Positions 9,967 through 51,879 of a stretch of DNA of 64,000 nt are shown piece after piece. How positions within the stretch are numbered: the stretch's first letter is position 1; the number at the start of each line of letters is the position of its first letter. This DNA comes from an uncultured Pelagibacteraceae bacterium. Its GTDB lineage: Bacteria > Pseudomonadota > Alphaproteobacteria > Pelagibacterales > Pelagibacteraceae. The notes below the pieces were generated by a model. That model did not search any database. It was not told where the DNA came from and saw nothing but the letters and a program-made list of their open reading frames with translations. Location: assembly GCA_902594255.1 (NCBI GenBank), contig CACJLN010000001.1:75001-139000 (forward strand). The letters run 5' to 3'. Both the position numbers and the translations under genes were made by a program.

Positions 9967-10006
9967 AAGTTTTATTTAATTATTATCACTTAAATTTCAA
10001 TATGAA

Positions 10007-11308
10007 TTAGCTTCTATAGTCTGCATTTATTTCAATATATTTTTTAGTAAGATCCATAGTGTATACTGTAAATGTTTTCTTACCAGCGGCAATATCAATT
10101 TCAATATCGATTGCGTAATTCTTCATATATTCTTTTACAATACTTTCCTCATACTTTTCATACAACTTACCATTAGTAACAATTTTTAAATCTCCAAATT
10201 TTATGAATAATTTTTGAACATTGAATTCTACTCCAGCTTTTCCGATCGCCATAACTATTCTCCCCCAATTTGGGTCTTCGCCTGCTAAAGCTGTTTTAAC
10301 CAATTTTGAATTAGCAACTGAAAAACCAATCTTTTTTGCATCTTCTTCTGTTTTAGAATTTTTGACTTTTATTGTTACAAATTTAGATGCTCCTTCCCCA
10401 TCTGAGACAATTCTTTTTGCTAAATTTAACAAAACTTTGTTAAGAGAAATATCAAATTCGTTTAATTTTTTATCAGTGAAATTTGAGATTTTTTGATTAT
10501 TAGCTTTACCAGTTGAAAAGATTGTTATCATGTCATTAGTGCTTGTGTCACCATCACAACTAATAGCATTGAAGGTGTTTGTAACATTTTTTTTAAGTAA
10601 CTTTTTCAAAATTTCATTTGAGAGATCTGCGTCGGTAAATATATATCCTAAAGTCGTAGCCATGTTAGGCTTTATCATTCCAGAACCTTTTGCAATGCCA
10701 TAAATCTTTACTTTTGTGTTACCAATTTTACACTCTTCCATAGCTAGCTTTGGTTTTGTATCAGTGGTCATTATACCTAGTGCTGCTTTTGTCCAAATAT
10801 ACTTATTTTGAGTATACTTAATTTGTTCTAATAAATTTGGTAAACTTTTTTTAATGGTTTCAAATGGAAAAGTTTCACCTATTGTTCCTGTGCAGCCGAA
10901 AATAATCTGATGACAATTTATTTTTTCAGGGTTGTTATCGTCATTTTTTTGTTTTTCAGTCAATTTGGAAGAAACTAAATCTGCTATCTTTTGCATTGAC
11001 TGGTATCCTTTAATTCCAGTAAAAGTATTTGCATTTCTAGTATTAACAATAAGAGAATATATTTTTTTTGTTTTTTGACTTAAATTCCATTTAATATTTT
11101 CAGATATTATTTTTGACTGCGTGTATAATGACGCAAAATTTGCCCCATCTCTAAAGTAGAACATTACCAGGTCATCTCTTGGATTATTATACAAATTTGC
11201 AGAAATTGTAGAAATGGCTACTCCGTCTAAGTGATCAAGATTTTGGTAATCACCCATCTTGCTTTTATTTTGTTGAGAAGATAAAAAGTTTTTAAAATTT
11301 ATTCCCAT
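10007..11308 (-). CDS. argJ: Glutamate N-acetyltransferase / ornithine acetyltransferase
   Basis: 433 residues. ArgJ recycles the acetyl group from acetylornithine to glutamate in the arginine pathway. It is made as a precursor that cuts itself at a conserved Ala-Thr bond; here that site is KPNMATTLGY (about residues 213-222), with the Thr as nucleophile. The upstream TTDTKPKL and downstream GDGEGASKF and GEDPNWGR motifs are all present. The other arginine genes of the window (argD-argF, argB) are elsewhere, so the pathway is scattered. Confidence 0.95.
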   Translation of the reverse strand: MGINFKNFLSSQQNKSKMGDYQNLDHLDGVAISTISANLYNNPRDDLVMFYFRDGANFASLYTQSKIISENIKWNLSQKTKKIYSLIVNTRNANTFTGIKGYQSMQKIADLVSSKLTEKQKNDDNNPEKINCHQIIFGCTGTIGETFPFETIKKSLPNLLEQIKYTQNKYIWTKAALGIMTTDTKPKLAMEECKIGNTKVKIYGIAKGSGMIKPNMATTLGYIFTDADLSNEILKKLLKKNVTNTFNAISCDGDTSTNDMITIFSTGKANNQKISNFTDKKLNEFDISLNKVLLNLAKRIVSDGEGASKFVTIKVKNSKTEEDAKKIGFSVANSKLVKTALAGEDPNWGRIVMAIGKAGVEFNVQKLFIKFGDLKIVTNGKLYEKYEESIVKEYMKNYAIDIEIDIAAGKKTFTVYTMDLTKKYIEINADYRS

Positions 11309-38828: not shown

Positions 38829-40265
38829 CTAGGCAATTTCATATTTTTTTTCAATCGACATTATAAATGCATTAATTTCATCTAATTTTTTTAATTCATT
38901 TTCATCATCTCTATTTGAAGCTTGATCTCGTAAATAATCAATTTCAGTATATGCCATATTTACAGTTTGCCATTTTTCTTTATTTTTACTTAGAATTCTT
39001 CTCGCTATCTCACTTTTAATATTTTTATAAAGATCTGGCGGTAAAATTTGCGGCGCTTCTTGATAAATAATTTTTTGACCAAACCAGCAACATCTTTTAT
39101 CTTGAAACTTATCAAGTAAACGTAGCTTGTCTTCCCATGATGAACTGTGCCAGGTTTTAAATAATGCGGTATCCTTATTTGGTATAAATTTTTCATAAAG
39201 AGTTTCCTCAGGGAGTAAATCCTCTTGGGTTTTCAATTGTTCTTTTTCCTCTGCTGCTTCTCTATTTATTATTTGGATATTTTTACAAAAATTTTCATTA
39301 TTTCTAACTAATTGTGCCCTCTTTTTTAAAGTTTCTAAATCTAACTCTGTGTATGGTTTTTGTTTTAATGCAAATTCTTTATCTAAAACTACTGGAGCCT
39401 TATTCGTTCTTAAAACTCTCAACGCTTTTGGACTAAATTTTTTTAATGTATCTCTTAACTGATCCACTGATAAGTCTAGTAATGGCTCTGGGTCCCTTCT
39501 CAAATCCCAGAGATATCCCCAGGATGCATATGAGGGGTGAAAACATTGATTTGGGTGCAATGTACTTACTAAATACATCATATTTCTCCCCTTCACATTT
39601 TCAAAAATTGAATACACACCATCACTTTTCAAAATTGTCTCAACACTTGATTTTGTTGATGTTTTTAAAAATGTTTGCCAATTTTCTTTATGTTTCTCCT
39701 TTATAATTCTTAATACTTTTAAGGAATTTTGAGCATCCACATAAGCTGTATGGCTGGCAGATGTGTCAAAACCCTGCATTCTAGATAAAGATTCTAATGC
39801 AAGGCTTGGATTTCCTGCCTCTGTTAATTCTGTTTTTAAAGTCTCTGAATTTAAAGTTTGAGCCGCTCTAGCTATATGTAAACCATCGTGTTCACTATTG
39901 GGTGACGAGTGTGTAGCATAGGGATACCGATTACCCTTAAAAAAATTAAAATGAAACATCCTTCGGTCAAAATTTAAATTTGACCATCCCATAAACATTG
40001 CCGGAGCACATTTTGAGAAAAAATTTTCAACAGCACCTAAGAAATCATAATGCGAATAATTGCCTTTAGTTAATAAATCAATACTAGTTGAATTAACAAG
40101 TAAAGCTTTAGCGCTTGGCACCTCACCTTCTGGCATTCTACCTCTAATATTTAGTTTTCCAATTTCTTTTAAATTTTTGTCAACTACAACAGCTCCTACT
40201 TCAATAATGGATCCCCATATTGTTGAGTTTGTGGTTTCAGTGTCGTAGATTACAATTTTATCCAT
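38829..40265 (-). CDS. sbcB: Exodeoxyribonuclease I
   Basis: 478 residues. ExoI degrades single-stranded DNA from the 3' end and limits RecA-independent repair. The DEDD exonuclease start is IVIYDTETTNSTIWGSIIEVGA (the first 20 shown residues hold the Asp-Glu pair), FMGWSNLNFDRRMF gives the second acidic site, and SHTAYVDA the third. The SH3-like and C-terminal helical domains follow. It is third in the minus-strand operon rmuC-nuclease-sbcB, three bases after the nuclease stop. SbcB is uncommon in alphaproteobacteria, which suggests acquisition; that is inference. Confidence 0.88.
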   Translation of the reverse strand: MDKIVIYDTETTNSTIWGSIIEVGAVVVDKNLKEIGKLNIRGRMPEGEVPSAKALLVNSTSIDLLTKGNYSHYDFLGAVENFFSKCAPAMFMGWSNLNFDRRMFHFNFFKGNRYPYATHSSPNSEHDGLHIARAAQTLNSETLKTELTEAGNPSLALESLSRMQGFDTSASHTAYVDAQNSLKVLRIIKEKHKENWQTFLKTSTKSSVETILKSDGVYSIFENVKGRNMMYLVSTLHPNQCFHPSYASWGYLWDLRRDPEPLLDLSVDQLRDTLKKFSPKALRVLRTNKAPVVLDKEFALKQKPYTELDLETLKKRAQLVRNNENFCKNIQIINREAAEEKEQLKTQEDLLPEETLYEKFIPNKDTALFKTWHSSSWEDKLRLLDKFQDKRCCWFGQKIIYQEAPQILPPDLYKNIKSEIARRILSKNKEKWQTVNMAYTEIDYLRDQASNRDDENELKKLDEINAFIMSIEKKYEIA

Positions 40266-40268
40266 TTT

Positions 40269-40958
40269 TTAATAAACTAAATTATTCATTTCATTAAACT
40301 TTTTTAATCTTCCTAAAAACAAATTTTGATATGTTATTAGTTCAGGTCCTTGAATTTTAAACTCTTGAAACAAATTATCCACTGTACAAACTAGAATAAC
40401 GCATGCATTAATATCTGAATTATAAACAACATTATGTGCTAAAGAGTATGCAGCGGTTTGTAAAAACCAAGAGTCTATGTACTCTGCTTTTTTTGGTTTG
40501 TTGGACTGTTTAAAATCAATTATTGTCTCTTTTCCCTCATAAACACCAACGCAGTCTGCTGTGCCCGCATATCTCTCAGGATAATGCATTGTACACTCCA
40601 CACCGTATATTTCTTCTAATCTGTTTGTTAAACCTTTATCAATAATTTCTTTTGCCATTTTTTTAAATTGCTCATTGTCTTCAAAGAAACTTAGATTTTC
40701 TCTCCCCAAAAGAAAAGACTCTAAATAGCTGTGCATCTGGGAGCCTCTGCTACTTGCAGCTTTTGTAATAGCTTCAGCTTCTTTGTGACCAGTTCTTTCA
40801 CGCCAATTAGCCAAAGCTGCTTTATCTTCTTCAGACTTTGTTGCATCAAGTATTGATGTCACACTAGGTAATTTAGCTTCACCCAAAACATATCTTCTTA
40901 TTCCATCCTCTGTCGCTCTTGAACTTGTAGGATAGTTGTATTTTTTGTTCCAACGCAT
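40269..40958 (-). CDS. PD-(D/E)XK nuclease, phage-exonuclease type
   Basis: 229 residues from the chosen ATG. The N-terminal KYNYPTSSRA, LPSVTSILDATK, LANWRERTGHKEAEAI and SRGSQMHSYLE blocks resemble the recombination exonucleases of T4-like marine phages (RecB/Cas4-like fold). The acidic active site is in the stretch TADCVGVYEGKETIIDFKQSNK, giving D...DFK with a supporting Gln. The open frame extends 26 codons upstream into rmuC, but that part is unlike the family. It lies between rmuC and sbcB, in an operon of DNA-end-processing genes. The phage link is from recall of these families, not a search. Confidence 0.8.
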   Translation of the reverse strand: MRWNKKYNYPTSSRATEDGIRRYVLGEAKLPSVTSILDATKSEEDKAALANWRERTGHKEAEAITKAASSRGSQMHSYLESFLLGRENLSFFEDNEQFKKMAKEIIDKGLTNRLEEIYGVECTMHYPERYAGTADCVGVYEGKETIIDFKQSNKPKKAEYIDSWFLQTAAYSLAHNVVYNSDINACVILVCTVDNLFQEFKIQGPELITYQNLFLGRLKKFNEMNNLVY

Positions 40959-40995
40959 GTGATTTCTTATAGTCGGTATTATCTGAAAAAAGAAA

Positions 40996-42093
40996 TTATT
41001 TTTTAAGCTGTTTATTTCTTTCAACAAAACTCTCAACGTTCTCTGTCAACACAGCTTTTTCAACTTGCTCGGGATCTTTTATATTTTCTAAAGTTCTAGT
41101 AATTGATCTTGCATCTTTTCCAAAACTATCAACAACCGTCATGGCCTCTTCAAGTTTTTTTCTTAATTTATAAATGTTATCAAAATGACTAGAAAATCTT
41201 GTGCTTATTGCTTTAAGATGATCATAAATTTCCGTAGCGTTTTTGGATATTTTGATACTCTGGAATCCCATGTGTAAAGACTGTAAATAAGCTGAAAGAG
41301 TATTTGGGCCGCAAATTACTATTTTATATTTTTTCATTAATTCTTGAGTTAATAACTCCTTAGTGCTTGGGTCTTGATACTCAGTTAATTCTTTATAAAG
41401 ACTTTCTGTAGGAGCGTACACTATTGCAAAATTTGAAGTTTTAGGTGGAACAATATATTTTTCCATGACACTTTTTGCTTTGGCCTTAAATGCACTTGCT
41501 AATTTCGTTCTAGCATCAGCAACTGCCTTCTTATCATCTGCCTCGTGTGCATCTGTAATTGCCTTAAATTTTTCTACTGGAAAATGAGAGTCTACCGGAA
41601 CCAAAACATCTCCTTGAAGCTTGATCGCAAATTCTACATTTTCACTTGTATCCTCTTTCATTTTGACATTGGTCATAAATTGAGATGCCGGTAATAAATC
41701 CTTAATCAAAGCATCTAAAGAATATTCAGCCAAAGTTCCATACTTTTTAACCCCTGCTAAAATTTTAGTAATCCCCTCTTGGCTTTGATTTAATAATTTA
41801 ACTTGCTCATTAAAGTTTCCTACCTTTTCATCTACTTTGGTTAAGGCCTCGGTCATATCTTTTGTAACTCCAGTGGATAAAGAGTTAAATGAAGTAGACA
41901 TTGAACTAAGTGATGTATTTATTGTAGAATTAAGACTATCTTTTAATCTTACTATTTCAGCATTTAAATTAGCTAATTCCTCAGCTTCTTTATTCTCATT
42001 TTCATCTTTAGGTTTTGATTTTAAATTTAAGTATAAAATACCCAATGTTGCACCAAGCAATATGATCAAAATTACTAGTAGAATCGTGTCCAT
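40996..42093 (-). CDS. rmuC: DNA recombination protein RmuC
   Basis: 365 residues. RmuC proteins limit inversions at repeats and are thought to be membrane-anchored nucleases or scaffolds. A membrane helix (residues 3-21) is followed by a coiled coil (about 30-115) and the RmuC core, with KFGTLAEYSLDALIKDLLP-like sequence, LVPVDSHFPVEKF, and APTESLY. The start lies nine bases after a promoter box of the island type, so the mRNA is probably leaderless. It heads the operon that continues into the PD-(D/E)XK nuclease and sbcB. Confidence 0.9.
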   Translation of the reverse strand: MDTILLVILIILLGATLGILYLNLKSKPKDENENKEAEELANLNAEIVRLKDSLNSTINTSLSSMSTSFNSLSTGVTKDMTEALTKVDEKVGNFNEQVKLLNQSQEGITKILAGVKKYGTLAEYSLDALIKDLLPASQFMTNVKMKEDTSENVEFAIKLQGDVLVPVDSHFPVEKFKAITDAHEADDKKAVADARTKLASAFKAKAKSVMEKYIVPPKTSNFAIVYAPTESLYKELTEYQDPSTKELLTQELMKKYKIVICGPNTLSAYLQSLHMGFQSIKISKNATEIYDHLKAISTRFSSHFDNIYKLRKKLEEAMTVVDSFGKDARSITRTLENIKDPEQVEKAVLTENVESFVERNKQLKK

Positions 42094-42101
42094 ATTTAAT
42101 A

Positions 42102-42128
42102 AGATATACGTGTTTTACCCTAAATCAA
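42102..42128 (-). promoter_or_regulatory. Island-type promoter for rmuC operon
   Basis: On the minus strand TTG (42128-42126, part of GTTGATT) is followed after 15 bases by CGTATATCT (42110-42102). The rmuC ATG lies nine bases further on. The box CGTATATCT occurs only three times that I can find in the window, all in front of island genes, with CGAATATCT as a fourth variant upstream of nurA. CTTG plus a CxTATAT-like -10 resembles alphaproteobacterial RpoH promoters. Confidence 0.55.
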
Positions 42129-42142
42129 CTTATTAGTAGATT

Positions 42143-42171
42143 ATTGAAAAAAAAATATTTAGCGTATATCT
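42143..42171 (+). promoter_or_regulatory. Island-type promoter for DUF3696 ATPase
   Basis: ATTG (42143-42146) is followed after 16 bases by CGTATATCT (42163-42171), and the ATPase ATG lies ten bases later. It is divergent from the rmuC promoter 34 bases away, and their ten-base cores (AAGATATACG and CGTATATCTT) form an exact inverted repeat. Confidence 0.55.
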
Positions 42172-42180
42172 TGTTTAAAC

Positions 42181-44052
42181 ATGCCATCAGCTAAAAGTAA
42201 AAAAAAAACAAAATTAGGGATTGCAAAAACATCTTTTGCAAGAACATCTTTTAGCAAAGTAATTTTAGAAAATTTTAAAGGCTATGGAAAAAATACTGAA
42301 ATCGATTTGTGTGAGGGTGTGAATTTAGTTTACGGAAAAAATAGTGCTGGAAAAAGCTCTATTATTCAATCTTTAAGGTTAATTCGACAAAACTTATTAA
42401 TTGTAAATACTCCAGTTCCATTCGTTCCAATCGCTCCCCTTAATCTAGGTATGGCAGGAAAAATACAATTTCCTGAAGGTATAGAAGGTATTATATTTGC
42501 AAAAGATAAAAAAAGAGAGTTGAAACTTGGTGTAGAAATAGAAACTAATTTTAGCAATAAAGAAGATATTAATAGACGAACTCTAATACATAGTTTTTTA
42601 GTTCCATCAAAAAATAGCCCGACTAGAGCTGACTTGAAATCAATTGAATTGAAATTTACAAAAAGTATTAAAGATAATATTGCTGATAATACTCACATTA
42701 AAATCAATCTCGGTAAAAAAAACGTTTTTAATAATAAAAGTAAAATTGCTAATTTTTTAGAGGATATCGCTGAATTTAGTGGTCCATTTAGTAGAAGCGA
42801 AATAGGATTTAAATTTGATAAAAGTGAGGAGTCACCTATCGACGACATTTATGTACATGAGAACGCTTCTATTGAAATTTTGAAATTATCCTTAATAAAA
42901 AGATCTTTTGAAGACATAAATAAAGATTTAGAAAAAAATAGAAAAAAAATATTAAAACATCTCTCAAATGTTTATATAAGAACTAGGACAAACAATTCAA
43001 AACTAAATAAAAGATCTGTAGAAGAAACATTCTCAATTCAGCGAGAAAAAGAAAATAACGTTATTGAATTATCTAGGATTAAGAAAATGTTTAATTTTGT
43101 AAAATCTAAGAATTTAGCAATTTATAAAAATTTTGAGGATTTTTTTGTAAAAGATATATTGAATAATTCTAAGATTATAAGATTTCATGATCAATTACTT
43201 GATAAGAAAGGATTTGAGAAAATAATTCAAAGAGAAAAAAAGAAAAAAACAAAGAGTTTTTGGATTGTTCCAAGCTCATATTTAATAAATATTCTTGACA
43301 ATTGTTTTAGAACTAGACCTTCAATTATACCAACGTTTGATTTTAATTTTAATTACAATAACTATTTAAGAAATATACGAGATCTTTTGGATACAGTTTT
43401 AGTTATACCTGGTTTGAGAGCTCTTCCAGAAAGGTACCACAAAAGAGGAGTTCAAACCTCATTTGTCGGTGAGCAAGGTGAAAATATTGGTGAATTAATA
43501 TACAATCGTGAAGCGAGGGATAGAGTAAATAAGTGGTTCAAAATTCTTGAAATACCATATGAAATAAGAAGTTCTCTAAAAGAAAATTATTTTTATCTCG
43601 AACTTAAACCTATTGGTGAAAAATATTGGATTAGCTATAGAGATGTGGGATTAGGTTACTCTTTATCTCTAAGTTTTATTTTATCTTGTTTACTTGAAAC
43701 CAATAAAACTATTTTGGTAGAAGAGCCTGAGGTTCATTTGCACCCTAAATTACAGGGAGATATTATGGATCTTTTATTATACTCATCAAAAGTAAACAAA
43801 AATCAATTTATAGTCGAAACACATAGTGAAAATATGCTTTTAAGAGCACAAAAATGTATTAGAAAAGGAAACACAGAATTAAACCCTGACAAAAATAAAA
43901 TAAAAGTTACCAACAAAGATTTAGGAATAAATAATGTTTACAGAGAAAATAATAGTTCATCTGTTCAAAAAATAAAATTGGATAATCAAGGAGAATTTAG
44001 AACTCATTGGAGAGATGGATTTTTCTCTGAACGACTCGATGACTTGTTTTAA
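42181..44052 (+). CDS. SMC-like ATPase with DUF3696
   Basis: 623 residues. An AAA/ABC-type ATPase of the OLD/RecF-like class. After a basic N-terminus, the core opens ILENFKGYGK, with Walker A YGKNSAGKSSII (51-62); Walker B is ILVEEPEVHLHP (511-522), followed by VETHSE (545-550). The C-terminal GEFRTHWRDGFFSERLDDLF (residues 604-623) is the DUF3696 mark. The middle, about 150-440, is helical and unlike anything I recognise. Such ATPases often work with a nuclease or effector encoded next door, here the 344-residue gene starting at its stop. Role in DNA repair or defence is inferred. Confidence 0.8.
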   Translation: MPSAKSKKKTKLGIAKTSFARTSFSKVILENFKGYGKNTEIDLCEGVNLVYGKNSAGKSSIIQSLRLIRQNLLIVNTPVPFVPIAPLNLGMAGKIQFPEGIEGIIFAKDKKRELKLGVEIETNFSNKEDINRRTLIHSFLVPSKNSPTRADLKSIELKFTKSIKDNIADNTHIKINLGKKNVFNNKSKIANFLEDIAEFSGPFSRSEIGFKFDKSEESPIDDIYVHENASIEILKLSLIKRSFEDINKDLEKNRKKILKHLSNVYIRTRTNNSKLNKRSVEETFSIQREKENNVIELSRIKKMFNFVKSKNLAIYKNFEDFFVKDILNNSKIIRFHDQLLDKKGFEKIIQREKKKKTKSFWIVPSSYLINILDNCFRTRPSIIPTFDFNFNYNNYLRNIRDLLDTVLVIPGLRALPERYHKRGVQTSFVGEQGENIGELIYNREARDRVNKWFKILEIPYEIRSSLKENYFYLELKPIGEKYWISYRDVGLGYSLSLSFILSCLLETNKTILVEEPEVHLHPKLQGDIMDLLLYSSKVNKNQFIVETHSENMLLRAQKCIRKGNTELNPDKNKIKVTNKDLGINNVYRENNSSSVQKIKLDNQGEFRTHWRDGFFSERLDDLF

Positions 44053-45086
44053 TGATTGCTACAATAAAAATATCTAATAAATTTATAGAATCTATAATCT
44101 TAGAAGATTTTTTAAATAATAGAAAAATTTTTGAATTTTTATACGAATTATATAAAGATGAATATGTTTATTTAGTTGGAGACAAAGAACATTTGATTAA
44201 ACTTGTCAAAAAACATAAAACTTATTTAAAAAAATCAGGTTGTGTTAAACGAGCAAAATTTATTGCAGCTTTACGAAATAAAGTACAGTGGATTAATACC
44301 AATATTCCGATAGATTTAAACTTAATTTCTAATAAAGAAAAAAACCAAAATAAATTTTTCTTCAATTTTAAACAAATAAATAGATTATCTAAAAAAATTT
44401 TAAAACAAATCTCAAATATAAAAGACGAGGCATTTAGAATCACTCTTAAAAGAGGTCAAACCTATGAAACAACTATTAGATCTCAAGACGTTAAAAAAAT
44501 GCAAAATAAACTATTAAAAATTATTTTTGTAGTAGATGAAGTAATTATTTATGACAAATACATTGGTACTAATTTAGTATTTTTCCATCCAAAATTTAAA
44601 GAAATTAGACGTAATAATTTTTTAAATGATTACGGTTTAACTTTAAATTTTTTAAATCAAAAGATATTTAAAGATTCTCCTACAAAACCCAAATGCAAAA
44701 TTTATACTATTAATAAGCAAGATAAACTTTTTTTTGAAAATCCGGAAAAAAATTATGTTACTTTTAAAGAATGCGCTGAAGAGTATATAAATAATGCAAA
44801 AGGGATAAATTGTAAACTTTTCTTAAAAAAGTACAGGTTTAAAGAAAAAATATCAGAAGATTTTTGGAAAGAGGCACATGATAGGTCTTTAGTTTTTAAA
44901 AGGGACGATCACTATATTGCATATTTAAACTTAGATGTAGGACTTGATTTCATAAAAAAAATTTCCCACACATTAAATAAATACACTTTTACACCTGGTA
45001 AAAAAATTAATTATGAAAATCTAATTGAAGGTGATTTAACAAATATAATTAAAATGGATAACGACCTTGAGCTTGAAGTTGCATAA
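44052..45086 (+). CDS. Unknown partner of the DUF3696 ATPase
   Basis: 344 residues, basic (lysine-rich), no membrane segment. The start shares one base with the ATPase stop, so the two are co-translated and likely partners. I do not recognise the N-terminal part (residues 1-100). The centre has KIIFVVDEVIIYDKYIGTN (about 155-175). Near the C-terminus, HDRS (276-279) followed by GLDF (297-300) recalls the HDR...GLD pattern of the PLD-like MIT_C domain, which would suggest a phospholipase-D-type nuclease fold; this match is by eye and weak. If correct, the pair would be an ATPase-effector module. Confidence 0.7.
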   Translation: MIATIKISNKFIESIILEDFLNNRKIFEFLYELYKDEYVYLVGDKEHLIKLVKKHKTYLKKSGCVKRAKFIAALRNKVQWINTNIPIDLNLISNKEKNQNKFFFNFKQINRLSKKILKQISNIKDEAFRITLKRGQTYETTIRSQDVKKMQNKLLKIIFVVDEVIIYDKYIGTNLVFFHPKFKEIRRNNFLNDYGLTLNFLNQKIFKDSPTKPKCKIYTINKQDKLFFENPEKNYVTFKECAEEYINNAKGINCKLFLKKYRFKEKISEDFWKEAHDRSLVFKRDDHYIAYLNLDVGLDFIKKISHTLNKYTFTPGKKINYENLIEGDLTNIIKMDNDLELEVA

Positions 45087-45123
45087 ATTCGCGTAAAATT
45101 AGAATTTTTTTTTAAAAAAAGAC

Positions 45124-45151
45124 CTTGTTATTATAAATATCGCGTATATCT
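45124..45151 (+). promoter_or_regulatory. Island-type promoter upstream of the sigma gene
   Basis: CTTG (45124-45127) is followed after 15 bases by CGTATATCT (45143-45151). The sigma ATG lies 85 bases downstream, so unlike the other three island promoters this one leaves a leader. If the sigma factor recognises this box, it controls its own gene. The leader (45158-45183) can also form a CTTATT/AATAAG hairpin. Confidence 0.5.
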
Positions 45152-45225
45152 AAGAATTAGCTAACTTATTATTTATAAATAAGCTCAATTAAGCCACATT
45201 TATATGATAATAGAATAGCACGGCA

Positions 45226-45240
45226 GCATATGAAATATGC
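45226..45240 (+). promoter_or_regulatory. Hairpin covering the sigma start codon
   Basis: GCATAT (45226-45231), loop GAA, ATATGC (45235-45240): a six-pair stem in which the sigma ATG (45237-45239) lies in the 3' arm. No Shine-Dalgarno sequence is visible in front. Weak start-codon hairpins of this kind act as thermometers in some heat-shock sigma mRNAs. At six mostly A-U pairs the stem is marginal; function is speculative. Confidence 0.35.
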
Positions 45241-46199
45241 TAAAACTAAAATCTGGTGAGCTGCCCACTACAAACACAACTGGTTCTAGAGCTGCAAAGC
45301 TTGCACTTTTTAACCACTATCTCAACCATAAAGTAAACTCTAATCGGACAGTTTTAGAAAATATAATTTTTTCTTTTGGAGGAAATTACATCCCTGAAAG
45401 ATATTTAATTAAATCTCACAAAAATTCAAAAATTTCAGACGATTCTCTACAGGATATCAGATCTTTAGCTCATTTAATAGTTTGGGAAGCTGCAGATAAA
45501 TATTTATGGGGCTCTAATAGTAAAACAAAAATTAAATATAAAGAAAAATTTGATTTTTGTGTTTTTGCGAGCGAGCAAGTTAAGTTTAAGTTAAGAACTC
45601 ATTTAAGAGTTTTAAATTTAAATAGACTATGTGGAAAACTTCCTGACTCGGATGATATAAGAAATATCTATTCAAAATTACCAAAATTAAAAAAAGATAA
45701 AAAGTATTTAAGCAATAACGACTATAAAAAGATTGCTGAGGAAAATAATTTAAAAATAAGTGAAATTGAATTAGTTGATAAATTTATAACAACAAAAACT
45801 GAGTCTGGGGATGAATCGATTAAAAATGAGAATGAAGAAGATAATGGAAATAGATGGAGCCAATTAGAGTCAAGTAACAACGACGCAATACAGTATAATA
45901 AAAATGTTGGTGCATTCGATACACTTTCTGAAATAGAAGAAATAATTGAAAAAAATTTAGTTATTAAAAAATTTAACGACCTAAAAAAAGATTTTTTAAA
46001 AACACTTTCATTTCGAGATAAAGAAATTTTACTAAATACGAAATTGAAAGATTTAAGTCCATCTAAAGAATTATCTTTAGTTGAATTAAGTAAAAAATTT
46101 AATATTTCATCAGAAAGAGTAAGACAAATATCTGAGAAAAAATTTTCAGAATTAAAAAAAATTTTAATAAAAAATAAAAAAGACTTGGAAATTAATTAA
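45237..46199 (+). CDS. Divergent RpoH-like sigma factor
   Basis: 320 residues. The C-terminal region 4 is clear: a dimerising SFRDKEILLNTKL and a helix-turn-helix LSLVELSKKFNISSERVRQI (279-298), as in RpoH. A region 3-like stretch (about 165-200, IAEENNLKISEIELVDKF) and an RpoH-box-like IYSKLPKLKK precede an acidic linker. Region 2 is much altered: the core pattern of a helix with AADKY (about 90) and FDFCVFASEQVKFKLRTHLR (about 107-126) remains, but the classical RLVVKIA part is not recognisable. It is therefore either a drifted heat-shock sigma or a specialised factor. It sits amid genes carrying a shared promoter box, and its own gene has one. Confidence 0.8.
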   Translation: MLKLKSGELPTTNTTGSRAAKLALFNHYLNHKVNSNRTVLENIIFSFGGNYIPERYLIKSHKNSKISDDSLQDIRSLAHLIVWEAADKYLWGSNSKTKIKYKEKFDFCVFASEQVKFKLRTHLRVLNLNRLCGKLPDSDDIRNIYSKLPKLKKDKKYLSNNDYKKIAEENNLKISEIELVDKFITTKTESGDESIKNENEEDNGNRWSQLESSNNDAIQYNKNVGAFDTLSEIEEIIEKNLVIKKFNDLKKDFLKTLSFRDKEILLNTKLKDLSPSKELSLVELSKKFNISSERVRQISEKKFSELKKILIKNKKDLEIN

Positions 46200-46211
46200 A
46201 GACGAATATCT
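46184..46211 (+). promoter_or_regulatory. Island-type promoter for the nurA-herA unit
   Basis: CTTG (46184-46187) is followed after 15 bases by CGAATATCT (46203-46211), one base different from the other three boxes. It overlaps the end of the sigma gene. The predicted start is near 46217-46219, right at the ATG of the small open frame, and upstream of the structured RNA and nurA. Confidence 0.5.
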
Positions 46212-46218
46212 CAATAAT

Positions 46219-46554
46219 ATGCAAATAAATAACAAACATAAACATAGGAGGTCCACTTCAAATAACGTAATTAGCTTTAGTAAAAGCAGCTGTCGAGTAG
46301 CGGCAACGCCTCGTACCCTTGGATCTCTCCATTTTCCTTTCTTACATAACCAAGGGTCTTTCAACAGCTGCAATACTAAGGCTAAAAAAAAAATTACTAA
46401 AATTCATTTAAGAAGCTTTACTAATAGAAAATCATGCTGGGTGTTTAAACAAATCCTTAAAAGACGATTTAACAGACTTTCAAATAAAAAATTAACTATT
46501 CGAACAAATATTCGAGGAACTAAAATTCAATATTTTTGTGGAGCAAACAGATGA
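46219..46554 (+). CDS. Small basic open frame preceding nurA (uncertain)
   Basis: 111 codons without a stop, unusual in such AT-rich DNA, starting eight bases after the island promoter box and ending in an ATGA overlap with the nurA start (46551-46554). This geometry argues for real translation. The predicted product is very basic (many Lys and Arg, a few Cys) and matches nothing I know; residues about 18-56 are encoded by the palindromic RNA element and look unlike normal protein. It could be a real gene carrying an in-frame palindromic insert, or a non-coding leader. An AGGAGG at 46246-46251 has no start codon behind it. Confidence 0.4.
   Translation: MQINNKHKHRRSTSNNVISFSKSSCRVAATPRTLGSLHFPFLHNQGSFNSCNTKAKKKITKIHLRSFTNRKSCWVFKQILKRRFNRLSNKKLTIRTNIRGTKIQYFCGANR
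46271..46385 (+). ncRNA. Three-way-junction structured RNA element upstream of nurA
   Basis: The outer stem pairs 46271-46282 with 46374-46385 (12 pairs, including one G-U that works only in plus-strand RNA), then after an AAA/AA internal loop 46286-46293 with 46364-46371 (8 pairs). Inside are two hairpins: CGAG/CTCG plus GCG-GCAA-CGC (46294-46313, a GNRA loop), and ACCCTTGG/CCAAGGGT (46315-46322 with 46350-46357) with a 27-base pyrimidine-rich loop. It is GC-richer than its surroundings. It fits no riboswitch or ribozyme class I can name. A leader element, an independent small RNA, or a mobile palindrome are all possible. Confidence 0.65.
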
Positions 46555-47864
46555 GTAACGAAAGAGATATTAAAAATAAAATAAAATCAAACTCATCTTT
46601 ATTTACCAATTTTGTAAAAAATGCTGTTTCAGCATCTCCAAAAGTTCAAAATAACTTTCTGGATGTCAGCACTCAAGTTGCTCTTACTGTTCAGAAGATT
46701 TTAGAAGATGCAGATTTAATTTTAAATCTTGAATACAAAGGAAAAGATTTCTGGTCTGAAAATAAATGTAAAACTTCATGCTTTGTTGATGGAGGAGTTG
46801 ATAAGACATCTATAATCAGTAGTGCACCACTTAGTATTAGAACTGGCAGCTACATCGTAAAGCCAGATGCTGCAGATAAAAATAGAGAATTCTTTGAAGA
46901 AAGTATGGTTTTTCTAGGTGATCTATATGACCCAAAAAACGAACTCTATGACTTTGCGGAAGACGATTTTGATGAAGATCAAATGCTTAATAAGAAAAAA
47001 GATGGTGCTAGAATAATTTTTGAAGCAGTCACTATTGTTAAACACATTTTGTTAAATAGAAAATTTGATTACTGCTTTTTACATGGCCCTATTGAAGCAA
47101 CTGTAATGCCATTTACAGTAATGGGTTTTCCAACATTTACTAAATTTGCTGTTGAAAATATGCTACCTTTTTATAGTAAAAATAAGCTTAATGCAGAAGC
47201 AAGACATTTCATCAATGTTTATTTAGAGGCTCTTAATTCTATTAAGAAAAGTAAGTTTCCTATCTATGGAATTGTGGAAACATCTAATTCAGCACCCTAC
47301 ATCAAGAATTTACTATTTAACTATAAATCTAAAGGGACTATCTCAGAAAAAGATTTTAAAAACACTCTTGCAACTATCAAAAAATATAAAATTACAGACT
47401 CTCACTTATTAGAAATAATTCTACAAAGTGGCCAAGCAATTAAACCTCTTGAGGTAAAAAAACAAATTCAAGGATTTGGTGTTACTTCAGGATCAGCTTG
47501 GGAAGATAAAATGGACTCTTTTCCAAGTGTTCATATTGGATATATCAAGATTAATAATCATTCAGCACCCATAAGAATTGAGACACTAAATCCACCAAAA
47601 AACCTAATTAAAGATTATGAATATATTCTAGCTACAGCTAAATTATTGCCTAACTATGGTTTTCCAGTAGGTTTAAATGTAGTCGATAAATTTGCCAAAA
47701 TTCCAAATTGGATGAGTAAGGCCTCAAGAAAATATTATGCAACTCATTTATTAAAACAAGCTATTAGAAGTAAAGATCAGAACACGATCAGTTTAGCAGT
47801 AAAAATTTTATCAAAAAAAGTAAGGTCTTGGAGAAATAGACCATTAGGAGGATTAGCAAGATAA
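46551..47864 (+). CDS. nurA: NurA-domain nuclease
   Basis: 437 residues. NurA is a 5'-3' nuclease that resects DNA ends with the HerA motor. The NurA domain starts SCFVDGG (about residues 77-82, catalytic Asp), with FDYCFLHGPIEATVM, GIVETSNSAPYIK and the C-terminal HIGYIKINNHSAPIRIE and ATAKLLPNYGFPVGLNVVDK blocks in family order. The open frame extends five codons upstream (46536); I take ATG 46551, which forms ATGA with the preceding frame. The herA start shares one base with its stop. NurA-HerA is best known in archaea and Deinococcus-Thermus. Confidence 0.88.
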   Translation: MSNERDIKNKIKSNSSLFTNFVKNAVSASPKVQNNFLDVSTQVALTVQKILEDADLILNLEYKGKDFWSENKCKTSCFVDGGVDKTSIISSAPLSIRTGSYIVKPDAADKNREFFEESMVFLGDLYDPKNELYDFAEDDFDEDQMLNKKKDGARIIFEAVTIVKHILLNRKFDYCFLHGPIEATVMPFTVMGFPTFTKFAVENMLPFYSKNKLNAEARHFINVYLEALNSIKKSKFPIYGIVETSNSAPYIKNLLFNYKSKGTISEKDFKNTLATIKKYKITDSHLLEIILQSGQAIKPLEVKKQIQGFGVTSGSAWEDKMDSFPSVHIGYIKINNHSAPIRIETLNPPKNLIKDYEYILATAKLLPNYGFPVGLNVVDKFAKIPNWMSKASRKYYATHLLKQAIRSKDQNTISLAVKILSKKVRSWRNRPLGGLAR

Positions 47865-49546
47865 TGAATACTAAAAAATGGAAATCTATTGGTACTGTTT
47901 TGGGTGAAACTAATATAAGTGAATTTTACTTTAGCCTTAAAAACTATAAAGCTAAAAAAGGTGACATCATCACTACAGAGTCAAAAGTTCCATCAAGTGA
48001 GGGAAAAATTGAAGAAGTAACAGTTTGGGGTAAAATTTCCTCAATCGAAAGCTCAAATGTTTTCTTTCCAACTGAAGCTGCTCAAGAATTAACAAATGAA
48101 AATATTAATATTAGAGACACTATTCTTCCAACAACCAGAGATGAGCTTATTTGTAAAGTTATCATCTTAGGTTTTACTTTGAAAAATAACTTAAAATTAA
48201 TGCCCTTAAACTATCCTGTAAGACCTGCTGCACCAGTGAGTTATCCATCTAGTGAAGATGTAGAGGCTTTATTGATCTCTGATTTAAACTCTGAACATCC
48301 GTTATTTATTGGAAGTTTACTAGCTAGAGATGCAGTTAAAATTAAAATTGATGCTGATAATTTAGTATCTCGTCATGTTTCAATCTTTGGAATGTCAGGC
48401 TCAGGTAAAACTGTAATGGTTAGGAGAATAATGGATGAACTTTTAAAGAAAAAATATCCAATGTTAGTACTTGATATTCACGGTGATTATTTAGGATTCA
48501 TCCAAAAACAAAAAAAACTATATCCTAAAAATGAGGTCAAATTATTTTATCCTAATTTATCTGTAAGCTCGGATGACAAAGAAATCATTTACACTTTAAT
48601 TGATAAACTTGGAAACTCACTAACAGATCCACAAAAAGATTTTTTAAGCTCACTATTAGAAAAAGTTAAATACGAAGGTGGTAGTTTACTAAAGTATATC
48701 GAGCTACTTGTTCGAAAAGCTAGAGAGTATGCATCAGACCCCTCAAAATCTTTTAAAAATATTCGTCCAGCTTCAATGTATGTTGTGGTTAGAAGTCTTG
48801 GCCAAGTTGCTAAAAAGTTAAAAAATATGGAGCAAACTAACTTTAGGCATAGACAAAAAATGAGTAAATTAAAGTTCGAAGAATTACCAGATGCTGCAAC
48901 TGAACCAGAAAAAATTATTAATAAAGGGCAGCTAAGTATTTTATATCTTAAAGGTTATGAAAATCTTCCAGCTAGTGCAATTGTCTCAATATTATTAGAA
49001 AATCTATTTAAACATAGACAAGAAGTGGAAGAAGAAATTCCACCTTTCTTAACAATTATTGAAGAGGCTCATAATTTCATACCGTCAAGATCTGAGGATA
49101 AAGATAACCTTCCATCAGTCGATACAATTCGAAAAGTAATTACTGAAGGTAGAAAATTTGGAACTGGGGTAATGATTATTTCTCAAAGGCCATCACGATT
49201 AGATGAAACCATTGCTTCACAATGTAATAGTCAAATTGTATTTAGAATGGTCAATCAAAAAGACCAAAGAGCAACTACTAGAGACTCTGAAACTTTAAGT
49301 GTAGACGACTCTAAACAATTACCCAATCTTGCAAACGGCCAAGGTATAATTAGTGGGCAAGTAGTAAATTTTTCACTTCCAGTTCAAATTAAATTTGATG
49401 CTGAATTAATCAACGATGATATTGGGAATGAAAATTTTATCTCTGCAGTGGAAAATTGGGATGACAAGGAGTCTGTTAAACAAAGAAAAAAATTTGCTAA
49501 AGATTTCTCTAATATAACTTCTATAGATAGAAGGAGAGCTAATTGA
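47864..49546 (+). CDS. herA: HerA-type DNA translocase (DUF87 ATPase)
   Basis: 560 residues. A hexameric FtsK/VirB4-like motor that feeds DNA to NurA. The N-terminal HAS-barrel-like part (1-130) is followed by Walker A SIFGMSGSGKTVM (173-185), LVLDIHGDYLGF, and the Walker B region FLTIIEEAHNFIP (about 395-407), then GVMIISQRPSRLDETIASQCNS with the arginine-finger-type C-terminus. It is translationally coupled to nurA on the left and to a small membrane gene on the right (TTGA at 49543-49546). All motifs look intact, so it should be active. Confidence 0.92.
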   Translation: MNTKKWKSIGTVLGETNISEFYFSLKNYKAKKGDIITTESKVPSSEGKIEEVTVWGKISSIESSNVFFPTEAAQELTNENINIRDTILPTTRDELICKVIILGFTLKNNLKLMPLNYPVRPAAPVSYPSSEDVEALLISDLNSEHPLFIGSLLARDAVKIKIDADNLVSRHVSIFGMSGSGKTVMVRRIMDELLKKKYPMLVLDIHGDYLGFIQKQKKLYPKNEVKLFYPNLSVSSDDKEIIYTLIDKLGNSLTDPQKDFLSSLLEKVKYEGGSLLKYIELLVRKAREYASDPSKSFKNIRPASMYVVVRSLGQVAKKLKNMEQTNFRHRQKMSKLKFEELPDAATEPEKIINKGQLSILYLKGYENLPASAIVSILLENLFKHRQEVEEEIPPFLTIIEEAHNFIPSRSEDKDNLPSVDTIRKVITEGRKFGTGVMIISQRPSRLDETIASQCNSQIVFRMVNQKDQRATTRDSETLSVDDSKQLPNLANGQGIISGQVVNFSLPVQIKFDAELINDDIGNENFISAVENWDDKESVKQRKKFAKDFSNITSIDRRRAN

Positions 49547-49869
49547 TAGCAGATCCTTTACTGCTTGAAGCAATGTTATTTGCTGCAAAAGCTACATTAA
49601 TTTTTCAAGCATGCTTAATATTTTACTTTTTTGGAAAAGATGAAAAAGTTCCTTATGCAGCTAGGAATATATTTTTTGTATTAGCTAATGCAGGATGTTT
49701 GTTTTTAGCAAGTGGTATAATTCAAGAAAACTCCTTCTTAATCAAATGTGGTATTTTTATCTTAATAGCTCAAGGTATGATTGATGCTCATTTCATCCTA
49801 GCAAGATACGAAAGAATTAAGAAAATTGAAAAGGAAATAGAAAATGAAAAATCAGATGCAAAAAAATAA
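49543..49869 (+). CDS. Small two- or three-helix membrane protein after herA
   Basis: 108 residues starting with TTG in a TTGA overlap with herA, with a good AAGGAG at 49531-49536. Three hydrophobic stretches (about 8-28, 39-60, 64-84) are followed by a charged tail with KKIEKEIENEKSDAKK. I do not recognise a family. Coupling to herA suggests that the island's resection machinery may be tied to the membrane, or that these are simply co-transcribed genes. Confidence 0.6.
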   Translation: MIADPLLLEAMLFAAKATLIFQACLIFYFFGKDEKVPYAARNIFFVLANAGCLFLASGIIQENSFLIKCGIFILIAQGMIDAHFILARYERIKKIEKEIENEKSDAKK

Positions 49870-50041
49870 ACTTCTAATTCAATGTCCCGCTTGTGAAGGT
49901 ACTAAAAAAGTAAAAAACGTAAAAACAATAATTCAAATTGGTAAGTTCTATTTAGGTAAAGAGGTCATGGAAGAATGTAAGCTTTGTACTGAAAAAACCT
50001 TAAAACAAGTATTTGAACTTGACGGAGATACACTTCATTAA
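49844..50041 (+). CDS. Small zinc-ribbon protein
   Basis: 65 residues from the first ATG, or 61 from ATG 49856. Two cysteine pairs, CPACEG and CKLC, 30 residues apart form a probable zinc ribbon like that of DnaJ-type proteins. The gene begins within the preceding one (26-base overlap) and its TAA shares a base with the next ATG (50039-50043). Function unknown. Confidence 0.6.
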   Translation: MKNQMQKNKLLIQCPACEGTKKVKNVKTIIQIGKFYLGKEVMEECKLCTEKTLKQVFELDGDTLH

Positions 50042-50322
50042 TGACAAAAGTTATTTCTATTGATGATATGGAAATTGAATTTGAAAAACAAAATTCTGAA
50101 AGTACATGTAAATGGTGTGTTTATATTCGTGTAAGAAAAAAAGATAAAGATCAGTTATTATTTATGCTCAAAACTAATCACAAACCTTTGACTAGATTTA
50201 CATACAACTCAGGAAGCATTGTAACAAAATCAAAAAAAACATTATCTGAAATTTTAAGTAATACTATGGAAGGAATAGAGGAACTAAAAACAATAGAAAA
50301 AAATATTAATGATGAAAAATAA
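50041..50322 (+). CDS. Hypothetical protein in nurA-herA unit
   Basis: 93 residues, soluble, charged. No recognisable family. The centre (WCVYIRVRKKDKDQLLFML) looks like alternating beta-strand sequence; the C-terminus is a lysine/glutamate-rich helix. TAATG coupling to the gene before and a 14-base overlap with the gene after show it is part of the same unit. Confidence 0.55.
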   Translation: MTKVISIDDMEIEFEKQNSESTCKWCVYIRVRKKDKDQLLFMLKTNHKPLTRFTYNSGSIVTKSKKTLSEILSNTMEGIEELKTIEKNINDEK

Positions 50323-50893
50323 AATTAGTCATTATATTTTTTATCTATCAATAATTTTCATTTTCTCGCTACTTATAAATTACAAAAATTTATCTAAAGC
50401 CGACGAAAAATGGGCTATAAAAAAATTTGAAAAACTCACTTATGCAAAAGTATCAGGTGAAATTCAACACGGGGATGCTTTGAGTTTTTTTATTCTTGCA
50501 GAAGATAATTGTAATAAAATTTGGAATACATTCACTTTTTTAACTTTTGAAAGACCAGGTGATATTAAACAACTTTTGCATCAACATTTACCAATAAGAT
50601 TAAATGGCCTGGATCTCACAGCCAAAGTTGAAGATATAAAATCTTTCTCCAGAGGTTATAAAGTAATGTTTAGTTTGGGTGTGTTTCCTATTAGGGAATA
50701 TGTATATTTTTTAAATGAATTTTATACAGAGGAAAAAAAATATGAAATTGAAATTGTTGATGGGATTAATTTTAAGGCTGAAAAATATTTTGATATTCGT
50801 TTCAATAATTGGAAATTAGAAAATCTTGTTGTTTCAATTTCTAAAGCTAATAAACTGTGTAAAGAGATTATTACTAATACTGAAAAATTATAA
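50309..50893 (+). CDS. Membrane-anchored or secreted hypothetical protein
   Basis: 194 residues. Residues about 8-25 form one hydrophobic segment (YIFYLSIIFIFSLLI) followed by a polar ADE region, suggesting an uncleaved anchor or signal peptide. The rest (about 40-190) is a mixed alpha/beta domain with no family I recognise. It overlaps the preceding gene by 14 bases. Confidence 0.55.
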   Translation: MMKNKISHYIFYLSIIFIFSLLINYKNLSKADEKWAIKKFEKLTYAKVSGEIQHGDALSFFILAEDNCNKIWNTFTFLTFERPGDIKQLLHQHLPIRLNGLDLTAKVEDIKSFSRGYKVMFSLGVFPIREYVYFLNEFYTEEKKYEIEIVDGINFKAEKYFDIRFNNWKLENLVVSISKANKLCKEIITNTEKL

Positions 50894-50896
50894 TTT

Positions 50897-51073
50897 ATGA
50901 AAAGAAAAAGAATAAAGGAACCAAAACAAAACGGCCTTACCATGAAGCAAATTCAAGGATATATCAAAAGTGCTAAAGGTAGTAAAAAACTCTATTGGAA
51001 AGGTAGAAGAGACTCCTTTAAAGGTTCAATGAGATATCAAGATTGGTTGTTGTCATTAAAAAATAAAAAATAA
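50897..51073 (+). CDS. Very small basic protein
   Basis: 58 residues, starting MKRKRIKEPKQNGLTMKQIQ and containing many Lys/Arg with GRRDSFKGSMRYQDWLL. It starts three bases after the previous stop and keeps the same direction and tight spacing, so is likely real. The basic charge suggests RNA or DNA binding; unproven. Confidence 0.5.
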   Translation: MKRKRIKEPKQNGLTMKQIQGYIKSAKGSKKLYWKGRRDSFKGSMRYQDWLLSLKNKK

Positions 51074-51075
51074 AT

Positions 51076-51207
51076 ATGGATATTATTTTTTTATTTAAAA
51101 TACTTTTTTTTTTAGGTTCAATTATTGCTTTATATGCTGTTATAAGAAATCTAGATATAATAAAAATTATTCTTATCTATTTTAAAGATAGATTACTTGG
51201 AAAGTAG
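51076..51207 (+). CDS. 43-residue single-helix membrane protein
   Basis: 43 residues with one hydrophobic helix (residues about 3-24, rich in I, L and F) and a short basic tail. It starts two bases after the previous stop. It is the last gene of the nurA-herA unit and converges with hisG, overlapping by 15 bases. A candidate small membrane protein; evidence is position and composition only. Confidence 0.45.
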   Translation: MDIIFLFKILFFLGSIIALYAVIRNLDIIKIILIYFKDRLLGK

Positions 51208-51879
51208 TCTAATCAAGTTTTTTAATCCCTTTTTCTTAGTGTTTTTCTTTGAAGTGAAAATACAAGCTTGAGATTTTAAGATTTCTCCATCTTTCAATAT
51301 ACGTAAATTATTTGCCCTAAGAGTTTCACCTGTGGATGTTATATCTGTAATTAATTCAGCAGAACCAGTAAAAGGGTACGCCTCTGTTGCTCCTAAACTA
51401 TCAATCAATTTAAATTGAGTAACACCTTTAGAAAATAAAAAATCTCTTGTTAAATTTGGATACTTAGTTGCAACTCTTAATCTTTTTTTCTTTTTATCTC
51501 TAAATTCAAATGCAATTTCTTCTAGGTCAGCTATTGTTTGAACATCGATCCAAGGATCCGGTATAGCTACAACTAAATTAGCTTTTCCAAAATTAAGTTT
51601 TTTAATAACATTAATTTTGTTTTGAATATTTATCTCACTTTCTTTTAGTAAATCAAAACCAGAAAAACCGATATCTAAAGAGCCATCTCCTAATCTTTCA
51701 ATAATTTCTCTAGCATGCAAATATAAAATTTTCATATTTGATTTGTTTTTTATTGAGCCTATCAAATCTCTTTCCCCCCGTTCAGAAATTAGCTTTAATT
51801 TTTTTTTGATAAAAATTTTTAAAACATCTTTTCTTAACCGCCCCTTACTAGGTATTCCTATATTAATTAAATTTTTCAT
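51193..51879 (-). CDS. hisG: ATP phosphoribosyltransferase, short form
   Basis: 228 residues. HisG starts histidine synthesis from ATP and PRPP. The short form (HisG_S) lacks the C-terminal regulatory domain and needs HisZ, encoded directly upstream. NIGIPSKGRLRK (start), GDGSLDIGFSGFDLL, KYPNLTRDF and SLGATEAYPFTGSAELI are family blocks. It is last of hisS-hisZ-hisG, overlapping hisZ by four bases. Confidence 0.94.
   Translation of the reverse strand: MKNLINIGIPSKGRLRKDVLKIFIKKKLKLISERGERDLIGSIKNKSNMKILYLHAREIIERLGDGSLDIGFSGFDLLKESEINIQNKINVIKKLNFGKANLVVAIPDPWIDVQTIADLEEIAFEFRDKKKKRLRVATKYPNLTRDFLFSKGVTQFKLIDSLGATEAYPFTGSAELITDITSTGETLRANNLRILKDGEILKSQACIFTSKKNTKKKGLKNLIRLLSK

Follow-up and report, generated by a model that had tools for sequence, protein, structure and literature searches.

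A putative RpoH-derived sigma factor and its private promoter-like boxes in a nuclease island of Pelagibacteraceae

Genes of the rmuC–hisG island

The window, a stretch of 64,000 nucleotides (G000:C1:75001–139000), comes from a genome assembly of 1.02 Mb in 36 contigs that is 81.6% complete. It holds an island at 42181–50893 between two genes on the minus strand, the resident rmuC on the left (40996–42093) and hisG on the right (51193–51879). The island genes lie on the plus strand. An AAA_15-type ATPase of 623 residues (42181–44052), which matches the PADLOC models NsnB and PDC-M55A, is followed by a partner protein of 344 residues, here called X (44052–45086). The sigma gene comes next as an intact ORF of 320 residues with an ATG start (45237–46199), and then p111, a basic ORF of 111 residues that is kept in the island and carries a structured RNA (46219–46554). 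A NurA-domain nuclease of 442 residues (46536–47864; PF09376, 21.3 bits with a cut-off of 21) and a HerA helicase of 560 residues (47864–49546; PF01935, 102.5 bits with a cut-off of 23.2) are encoded in adjacent genes, and both domains exceed their Pfam cut-offs. Four small ORFs follow HerA at 49543–50893 (49543–49869, 49844–50041, 50041–50322 and 50309–50893). Downstream of rmuC and in the same direction lie the genes of a PD-(D/E)XK-like protein (40269–41036, with a match under the Pfam cut-off) and an exonuclease-I-like protein (38829–40265). This gene content points to an attack on, or the processing of, DNA ends.

The X protein has no family match, and among six genes compared in three pairs of loci its dN/dS, about 0.5–0.7, is the highest. 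HerA has the lowest value except in the L034–L035 pair, where HerA itself is replaced. The AlphaFold model of X is poor, with a mean pLDDT of 48.8, and a PDB sequence search with X returned nothing. A motif of the form HDR...GL first suggested that X is a phospholipase-D-like or MIT_C-type protein; this assignment is unsupported by Pfam, PADLOC and profile comparison.

The sigma ORF shows a distinct contrast between its two ends. The original prediction described a clear region 4, a strongly altered region 2 and an acidic linker before region 4, and all of these are borne out. Region 4 passes PF04545 with 27.5 bits against a cut-off of 24.1 (34.6 bits for the allele at locus L034), and none of the region-2 Pfam models matches the window sigma at E ≤ 1; the one other Pfam match is sub-threshold and irrelevant. 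Among the sister alleles, L059 reaches 24.2 bits with the region-2 model (cut-off 24), followed by L067 (22.7), L043 (17.1) and L041 (11.9), and the remaining alleles tested do not match it. The NCBIfam sigma-32 models cover only residues ~139–316 of the window sigma and score far under their cut-offs, at 44.2 bits against 241 and, for the TIGR02392 equivalog, 36.8 against 323.1. By profile comparison using hhalign, a profile of five close sigma relatives aligns to ten Pelagibacter RpoH proteins with a probability of 98 and an E value of 2.4e-13. This alignment runs from region 2.3/2.4 through the RpoH-specific box and parts of region 3 to region 4, although most residues of the RpoH-specific box and region 3 differ from those of RpoH. 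Since it starts at region 2.3/2.4, region 2 is altered rather than absent. The linker (residues 186–235) contains 13 Asp or Glu residues against four Lys or Arg residues and aligns opposite the acidic GEDGDEWQDW stretch of RpoH; judged from this alignment, it is a lengthened version of a feature already in RpoH.

Purifying selection acts on the sigma gene, with dN/dS values of 0.08/0.44, 0.11/0.72 and 0.25/0.93 in three pairs. The AlphaFold model of sigma, made from a three-sequence input, is poor (mean pLDDT 43.2), and the PDB sequence search gave weak RpoD/SigA region-4 matches (best 0.046) and an irrelevant lectin match (0.0028). A phage origin of the island was also considered and rejected: relatives of sigma (three queries) and of p111 were not found in viral contigs, nor was a NurA relative found in phage records.

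Promoter-like sites and the canonical RpoH

Directional promoter-like sites of the form xTTG...N13/14-CGTATATCT precede the island genes and rmuC. The ATPase site is composed of a −35-like ATTGAA (42143–42148) and, after a spacer of 14, the −10-like box CGTATATCT (42163–42171), which ends 9 nt before the ATG. The rmuC site faces the opposite way on the minus strand, with GTTGAT (42124–42129) and CGTATATCT (42102–42110), 8 nt from the ATG. The sigma gene has CTTGTT (45124–45129) and CGTATATCT (45143–45151), with 85 nt between the box end and the ATG. Lastly, the p111–nurA–herA site lies at the end of the sigma gene, where CTTGGA (46184–46189) is inside the ORF, and its box CGAATATCT (46203–46211) ends 7 nt before the p111 ATG; the ATPase, sigma and p111 sites are all on the plus strand. 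In general, transcription starts about 7 nt after the −10 element. Because the boxes of rmuC, the ATPase and p111 end 7–9 nt before the ATG, the mRNAs from these three promoters are probably leaderless.

The placement of these sites was compared with controls. Within the window, CGTATATCT occurs three times, each directly upstream of island genes or rmuC, and the pattern TTG-N15/16-CG[TA]ATATCT gives exactly four matches, one each before the ATPase, sigma, p111 and rmuC, the last of them on the minus strand. A word of nine common to three upstream regions was reached in one of 500 dinucleotide shuffles of the window and in none of 500 for L034. In the 1.02 Mb genome, TTGNN-N12..15-CGTATATCT is found in three copies, all three at the island, and the backward-read control gives none. 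The bare 9-mer CGTATATCT has seven copies against six in its backward-read control; as it is not rare genome-wide, the unusual feature is its placement together with the −35 element. The island accounts for three of the seven copies in G000, three of six in G146 and two of three in G721, and for none in six genomes whose islands carry other sigma alleles (the island of G295 is interrupted by a contig end in these counts). Outside the islands and rmuC regions, the promoter pattern occurs 0–2 times per genome in 26 genomes, and since the reversed-pattern control reaches a similar level (up to three per strand), nothing points to a wider regulon.

The original prediction called for a search for a second, canonical RpoH in the same genome, and one was found. 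Our region-2 search of the genome (E ≤ 0.001) returned two genes, an RpoD-like one (C4, a 605-residue ORF) and an RpoH (C1:2591), and this separate RpoH (L002) passes TIGR02392 with 361.3 bits against the cut-off of 323.1. The groES promoter of the same genome reads CTTGAA-N15-TCTATAT, close to the Sinorhizobium RpoH1 consensus CTTGAA-N15-16-CCTATAT as described in PMC4843759. It lacks the island box, and by its letters its −10 element and spacer are RpoH-type. Because a canonical RpoH is present and the groES promoter is RpoH-type, the earlier concern that the island protein might be a drifted heat-shock sigma serving the chaperone promoters does not hold for groESL. The claim of an unusual −10 box nearby was partly upheld: the box does stand before the island genes and rmuC with a −35 element, but it is less exotic than proposed. 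CGTATAT is one base away from CCTATAT, so the island box can be described as a CG variant of the RpoH-type −10 whose spacer is reduced by one to two bases.

Exchange of sigma alleles and their boxes

An island with a gene at the sigma position is found in twelve other genomes, three of which belong to another genus. Thirteen loci were read (the window, L034, L035, L040–L044, L059 and L065–L068), and a further one, L060, ends before sigma; L035 was taken from named contigs, and two relatives in named records are Pelagibacteraceae (SAR11) assemblies. When the region-4 resemblance to RpoH is set aside, homologues of the window sigma allele occur in two of 201 genus genomes, its own and G146. HerA is found in nine of the 201, including G068 and G140, where it lies at another locus without the island neighbors. 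For p111 the counts are nine of 399 genus genomes and nine of 397 family genomes, three of the latter belonging to another genus. The left flank is rmuC in 11 of the 13 loci, namely those reaching that far, including two of genus g4. The right flank is hisG in all ten genus-g1 loci and in L060. Two g4 stretches extend far enough to include hisG, and it was seen in neither; the L067 stretch is too short for either flank. Several loci have peculiarities of their own. The HerA frame of L043 (G003) is split and the NurA frame of L035 (G721) seems to be interrupted near its start by tblastn, each through sequencing error or decay, and L042 (G004) has an extra 220-residue ORF between NurA and HerA (oriented 9886–10548) that the other loci listed do not have. 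A more distant HerA–NurA pair, with ~40% HerA identity, is present in two other genus genomes (L045 and L046) behind a 108-residue and a 274-residue gene; neither locus has a tblastn match to the window sigma.

The structured RNA within p111 (46246–46385, plus strand) is present in all 13 island loci. It is a three-way junction of 140 nt with 27 pairs, and 95.2% of the cells are paired over the 13 loci. In 14 of the 27 pairs both sides have changed, against 6.4 expected; none of 500 shuffles, which keep relatedness in, reached this number, and sliding the partners as a control gave one to five such pairs. A GNRA-type hairpin, a pyrimidine-rich loop and an invariant AGGAGGT at the 5′ end are its recognizable features. 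The covariance model scores 160.8 bits on the window, itself a member of the model, and finds no match in L045 or L046; Rfam gave no match over 42000–51200. We also considered whether p111 is a false ORF lying over the RNA, and third-position-biased changes (in close pairs only) and frames open in 13 of 13 loci argue against it. The RNA may regulate the NurA–HerA mRNA.

The island proteins differ greatly in how well they are conserved. We compared them in an identity matrix of 11 loci, as L059 and L067 are without the left part; for HerA of L043 the comparison is limited to the first 472 residues, and the start of the L034 ATPase was set at the ATG at 5666. The NurA values of this matrix were set aside, as the L035 NurA had been read out of frame. 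HerA is 97% identical to that of the window in L034, 93% in L040, 91% in L041 and 97% in L043, whereas the sigma identities at the same loci are 64, 26, 25 and 24%, and those of the ATPase and X lie at 24–35%. Overall, the sigma, ATPase and X alleles diverge to ~20% identity, with HerA at up to 97%. Sigma covaries with the ATPase (r = 0.78), the ATPase with X (0.71) and sigma with X (0.43), while the link to HerA is 0.08 for sigma and 0.01 for the ATPase. Thus, ATPase–X–sigma behaves as an exchangeable cassette over a conserved backbone. The converse case is L035, which has the sigma group and box of the window together with a HerA of 53% and a NurA of ~49% identity (the latter by tblastn). 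Seven of eight sigma alleles match NCBIfam sigma models at E ≤ 0.01, and TIGR02937 (cut-off 42.9) is passed by L059 (50.7), L041 (44.9) and L044 (45.1). The L059 sigma is nearest to a normal RpoH, with 76.7 bits to TIGR02392 against its cut-off of 323.1. The gene at the sigma position in L068 has no sigma-family match in NCBIfam and is counted as a sigma allele because of its 29–32% identity to the L040 group.

The −10 boxes differ among these alleles. The boxes of L034 and L035 are CGTATATCT, with CGCATATCT before the L035 sigma; those of L065 are CGTATATTA, AGTATATTA and CGTATATTT, and those of L066 are AGTGTATCT and AGTATATCT. Boxes of the CGG[TCG]TAT type occur in L040, L041, L042, L044 and L068, CGGGTATAT stands before the L067 sigma, and GGAATA is perhaps, tentatively, the box of L043. 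Most sites keep a TTGA- or TTTA-like −35 and a spacer of 13–14, and the −10 varies, as is predicted by an altered region 2 combined with a conserved region 4. The box ends 7–8 nt before the rmuC ATG in 11 of 11 loci and 7 nt before the p111 ATG in the three group-1 loci. For the ATPase the distance is 7–9 nt in eight of 11 loci, 15 nt in L044 and 39 nt in L043, and an ATPase box is undetectable in L068. In per-locus shuffles, a shared word or 9-mer trio is rarer than 2% in five of 11 loci (the window, L034, L035, L066 and L041) and borderline, at about 5–7%, in L065 and L044; L040, L042, L068 and L043 have no significant box by this measure. The second pattern, TTNAA-N12..14-CGGTTAT, has island sites in each of four genomes searched that carry the corresponding sigma allele: three of six distinct hits lie at the island in G039, two of four in G004, two of four in G067 and three of five in G061, against none of 13 in the islands of four other genomes. 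Genome totals of this pattern and of the bare box are not above their backward-read controls, so only placement is informative for either. What supports the group-2 sites is that they recur at equivalent positions in four genomes and are absent from the islands of four others.

That sigma and promoter may have changed together was part of the original prediction, and a Mantel comparison of 11 loci supports it. Box similarity correlates with sigma identity (r = 0.73, p ≤ 1e-4), with the ATPase (0.71) and with X (0.42), and is unrelated to HerA (−0.09), p111 (0.03) and the rmuC protein (0.10). These boxes were picked by eye, and the permutations do not remove shared ancestry. The sigma correlation is 0.74 given HerA and 0.74 given rmuC; given the ATPase it is 0.40 (p = 0.008), and that of the ATPase given sigma is 0.34 (p = 0.017). 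The test was repeated with the box defined as the nine bases at −17 to −9 before rmuC. With a slip of one base allowed, the sigma correlation is again 0.73 (p = 1e-4); with no slip it falls to 0.16 (p = 0.12), since the register of several loci is shifted by one base, and the ATPase gives 0.30 (p = 0.03). Two pairs illustrate the pattern. L043 and the window share a HerA that is 97% identical over 472 residues and have unrelated sigma factors and boxes, and L035 and the window, with HerA at 53% and sigma at 64%, have an identical box. The comparison therefore supports a box that follows sigma (and the ATPase), not HerA or the rmuC protein, with sigma and the ATPase inseparable here. The earlier proposal thus appears right in substance, with an island-specific sigma and −10 boxes that have apparently changed with it, in the form of an allele series.

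Some genomes that lack the island also have boxes upstream of rmuC. Among 399 genus genomes, 268 gave a match to the N-terminal part of rmuC, and 80 upstream regions were read from the top of the list ordered by similarity to the window rmuC, a sample that favors its close relatives. The rows follow one another in this list except for G387. The sample excludes island carriers, genomes read before and one region at a contig end, and none of the 80 is among the nine p111 carriers. In 12 of these island-free regions, [CG]GTATATC stands at exactly −17 with a TTG-type −35 (L100–L107, L127, L135, L138 and L140); CGGTTAT is in none of the 80 within the last 60 bases before rmuC. An earlier set of 30 rmuC loci held four island carriers and one truncated case, and of the other 25, four have clear group-1-like boxes (L082, L094, L095 and L096) and two have looser ones. 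In G084 (L127), 80 bp that take in the divergent ATPase promoter are 97.5% identical to the rmuC–ATPase promoter region of L035, and G297 (L106; a single contig, 99% complete) keeps 51 bp of the island promoter region at 96% identity. We take these remnants for scars of island loss; a second factor might read the orphan boxes.

Proposed regulation and alternative readings

We consider it probable that this defense-like nuclease island encodes a dedicated, self-activating sigma factor derived from RpoH, and that the factor and its private promoters are exchanged together as a cassette. In this proposal, region 4 with core RNA polymerase would read the ordinary TTGA-type −35, and the altered region 2 would read the private −10 (CGTATATCT) 13–14 bp downstream of it. 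Four transcripts would start in this way: a leftward one through the resident gene rmuC into the nuclease genes that follow, a rightward one through ATPase–X, one for the sigma gene itself, which would amount to positive autoregulation, and one for p111–nurA–herA and the small ORFs. ATPase–X would sense or attack and HerA–NurA would degrade DNA ends, so that once triggered, as we infer, sigma would switch on the island together with the resident exonucleases. Over evolutionary time, sigma, the ATPase, X and the −10 boxes would be replaced as one cassette over a conserved HerA–NurA backbone.

To place the island among known systems, we compared its parts with described families. PADLOC recognizes the ATPase and HerA, and has no match for X, sigma or p111. 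The ATPase resembles NsnB (7.7e-36) and PDC-M55A (1.9e-33), the ATPase of a candidate defense system composed of an ATPase and a partner, in this library, which has no cut-off, and is followed by a partner gene; the island differs in that its partner X is without a PADLOC match. A search of plasmid records with the ATPase found relatives in 19. Six records were opened, and in the five annotated ones (L160 and L162–L165) a hypothetical gene of ~300–347 residues always follows the ATPase homologue. Type I restriction genes adjoin in two of these five, one of which also has SIR2 and DUF87. The Paracoccus plasmid partner (L163) matches PDC-M55B; of the three plasmid partners, those of P0007 and Azotobacter (L165) do not match it, nor do the window X and five other island X proteins. 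No alignment was detectable between the Pelagibacter X proteins and the plasmid partners. The sigma factor resembles RpoH in its alignable regions 2.3–4 and in its CTTGAA-type −35 and CCTATAT-like −10, but has a region 2 unrecognized by Pfam and scores far under the RpoH cut-offs; it also differs in its private −10, its shorter spacer and its exchange with the island, and is not the RpoH of the genome. MzaA is described as a sigma-70-family factor within the MZA anti-phage system (PMC9523054; NCBIfam NF041931), and the Pelagibacter sigma resembles it in being such a factor within what may be a defense system. The island sigma scores 18.2 bits with that model, against a cut-off of 800 and 143.7 bits for an ordinary RpoH, and none of the other mza-named NCBIfam models matches any of ten island proteins. 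With its HerA and NurA domains, the island resembles the HerA–NurA, HerA–DUF4297 and SIR2–HerA defense systems; it differs by adding a dedicated sigma, the ATPase–X pair and the structured RNA. In the open-license PMC literature we found neither this combination nor a description of a sigma island between rmuC and hisG. In our reading, the island most likely acts against phages or plasmids.

An ordinary regulon for DNA-break repair or recombination, rather than defense, is a less likely reading, to which we give a minor share. Work on archaea and bacteria describes DNA-end resection by HerA–NurA complexes, and sigma also faces rmuC and the exonuclease-I-like gene, as a repair regulon would have it. 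But the island is sporadic, as the p111 counts indicate, and appears to leave scars, its ATPase–X pair is exchanged down to ~20% identity as in many defense loci, and its plasmid ATPase relatives have a partner gene and, in two of the five annotated records, adjoining restriction genes.

The remaining alternatives concern the reader of the boxes. They could be operators of another cassette-encoded regulator, for example ATPase–X, with the sigma-like protein a passenger or in charge of a different regulon. The nearly equal Mantel values (0.71 for the ATPase against 0.73 for sigma, with partials of 0.34 and 0.40), the better value of the ATPase in the strict test without slip and an X protein without family or fold by sequence are compatible with this. 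We regard it as improbable all the same, as the sites are non-palindromic, face the genes in promoter direction and carry a TTG-type element at 13–14 bp, mostly lie 7–9 nt before ATGs, resemble the RpoH-type promoter that this genome has before groES and have an RpoH-derived sigma encoded between them. Still more doubtful to us is that sigma is a drifted RpoH copy and the boxes are a weak variant of the heat-shock promoter, read by the canonical RpoH of the genome. The single-base difference of CGTATAT from CCTATAT, the −35 in common and the orphan boxes before rmuC in 12 of 80 and four of 25 island-free regions fit this idea; the spacer of 13–14 rather than 15 and the purifying selection on the sigma gene do not. 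Moreover, 16 canonical RpoH proteins are alike at both ends, yet the boxes vary with the sigma allele (CGGTTATA, AGTGTATCT), a pattern that one common reader would leave unexplained.

An alternative sigma with a private regulon is of a known kind; what the dedicated-sigma reading adds is a co-change that is repeated here and testable. How a sigma factor and the promoters it reads can change their specificity jointly is puzzling in evolutionary terms, since a change on one side alone upsets the match. With several sigma–box pairs at one locus and a similar −35 and spacing, the region-2 residues that set the choice of −10 could be mapped by allele swaps. SAR11 bacteria have been described as among the most abundant bacteria and as having relatively few transcriptional regulators. 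If the dedicated-sigma reading is true, an immunity-type island commands transcription by its own sigma and extends this command to resident nucleases. We see an even chance that this SAR11 locus holds a natural series of orthogonal sigma–promoter pairs. In this series, the sigma would repeatedly be swapped, along with its sensor or effector genes, for one of different −10 specificity, and the promoters, including that of the resident nuclease operon, would be re-lettered accordingly; the island would then be an immune regulon that is complete in itself and separate from host transcription, with a new structured RNA in the effector mRNA.

A further feature lies before the sigma start codon. 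In the window (45210–45236), a GCAGC/GCAG motif is placed ~10–25 nt upstream of the ATG, and it recurs at the equivalent place in L034, L035, L040–L042, L044 and L067, that is, in group-1 and several group-2 alleles. In L065 and L066 a hairpin-like repeat takes its place. Translational control of sigma through this motif is possible.
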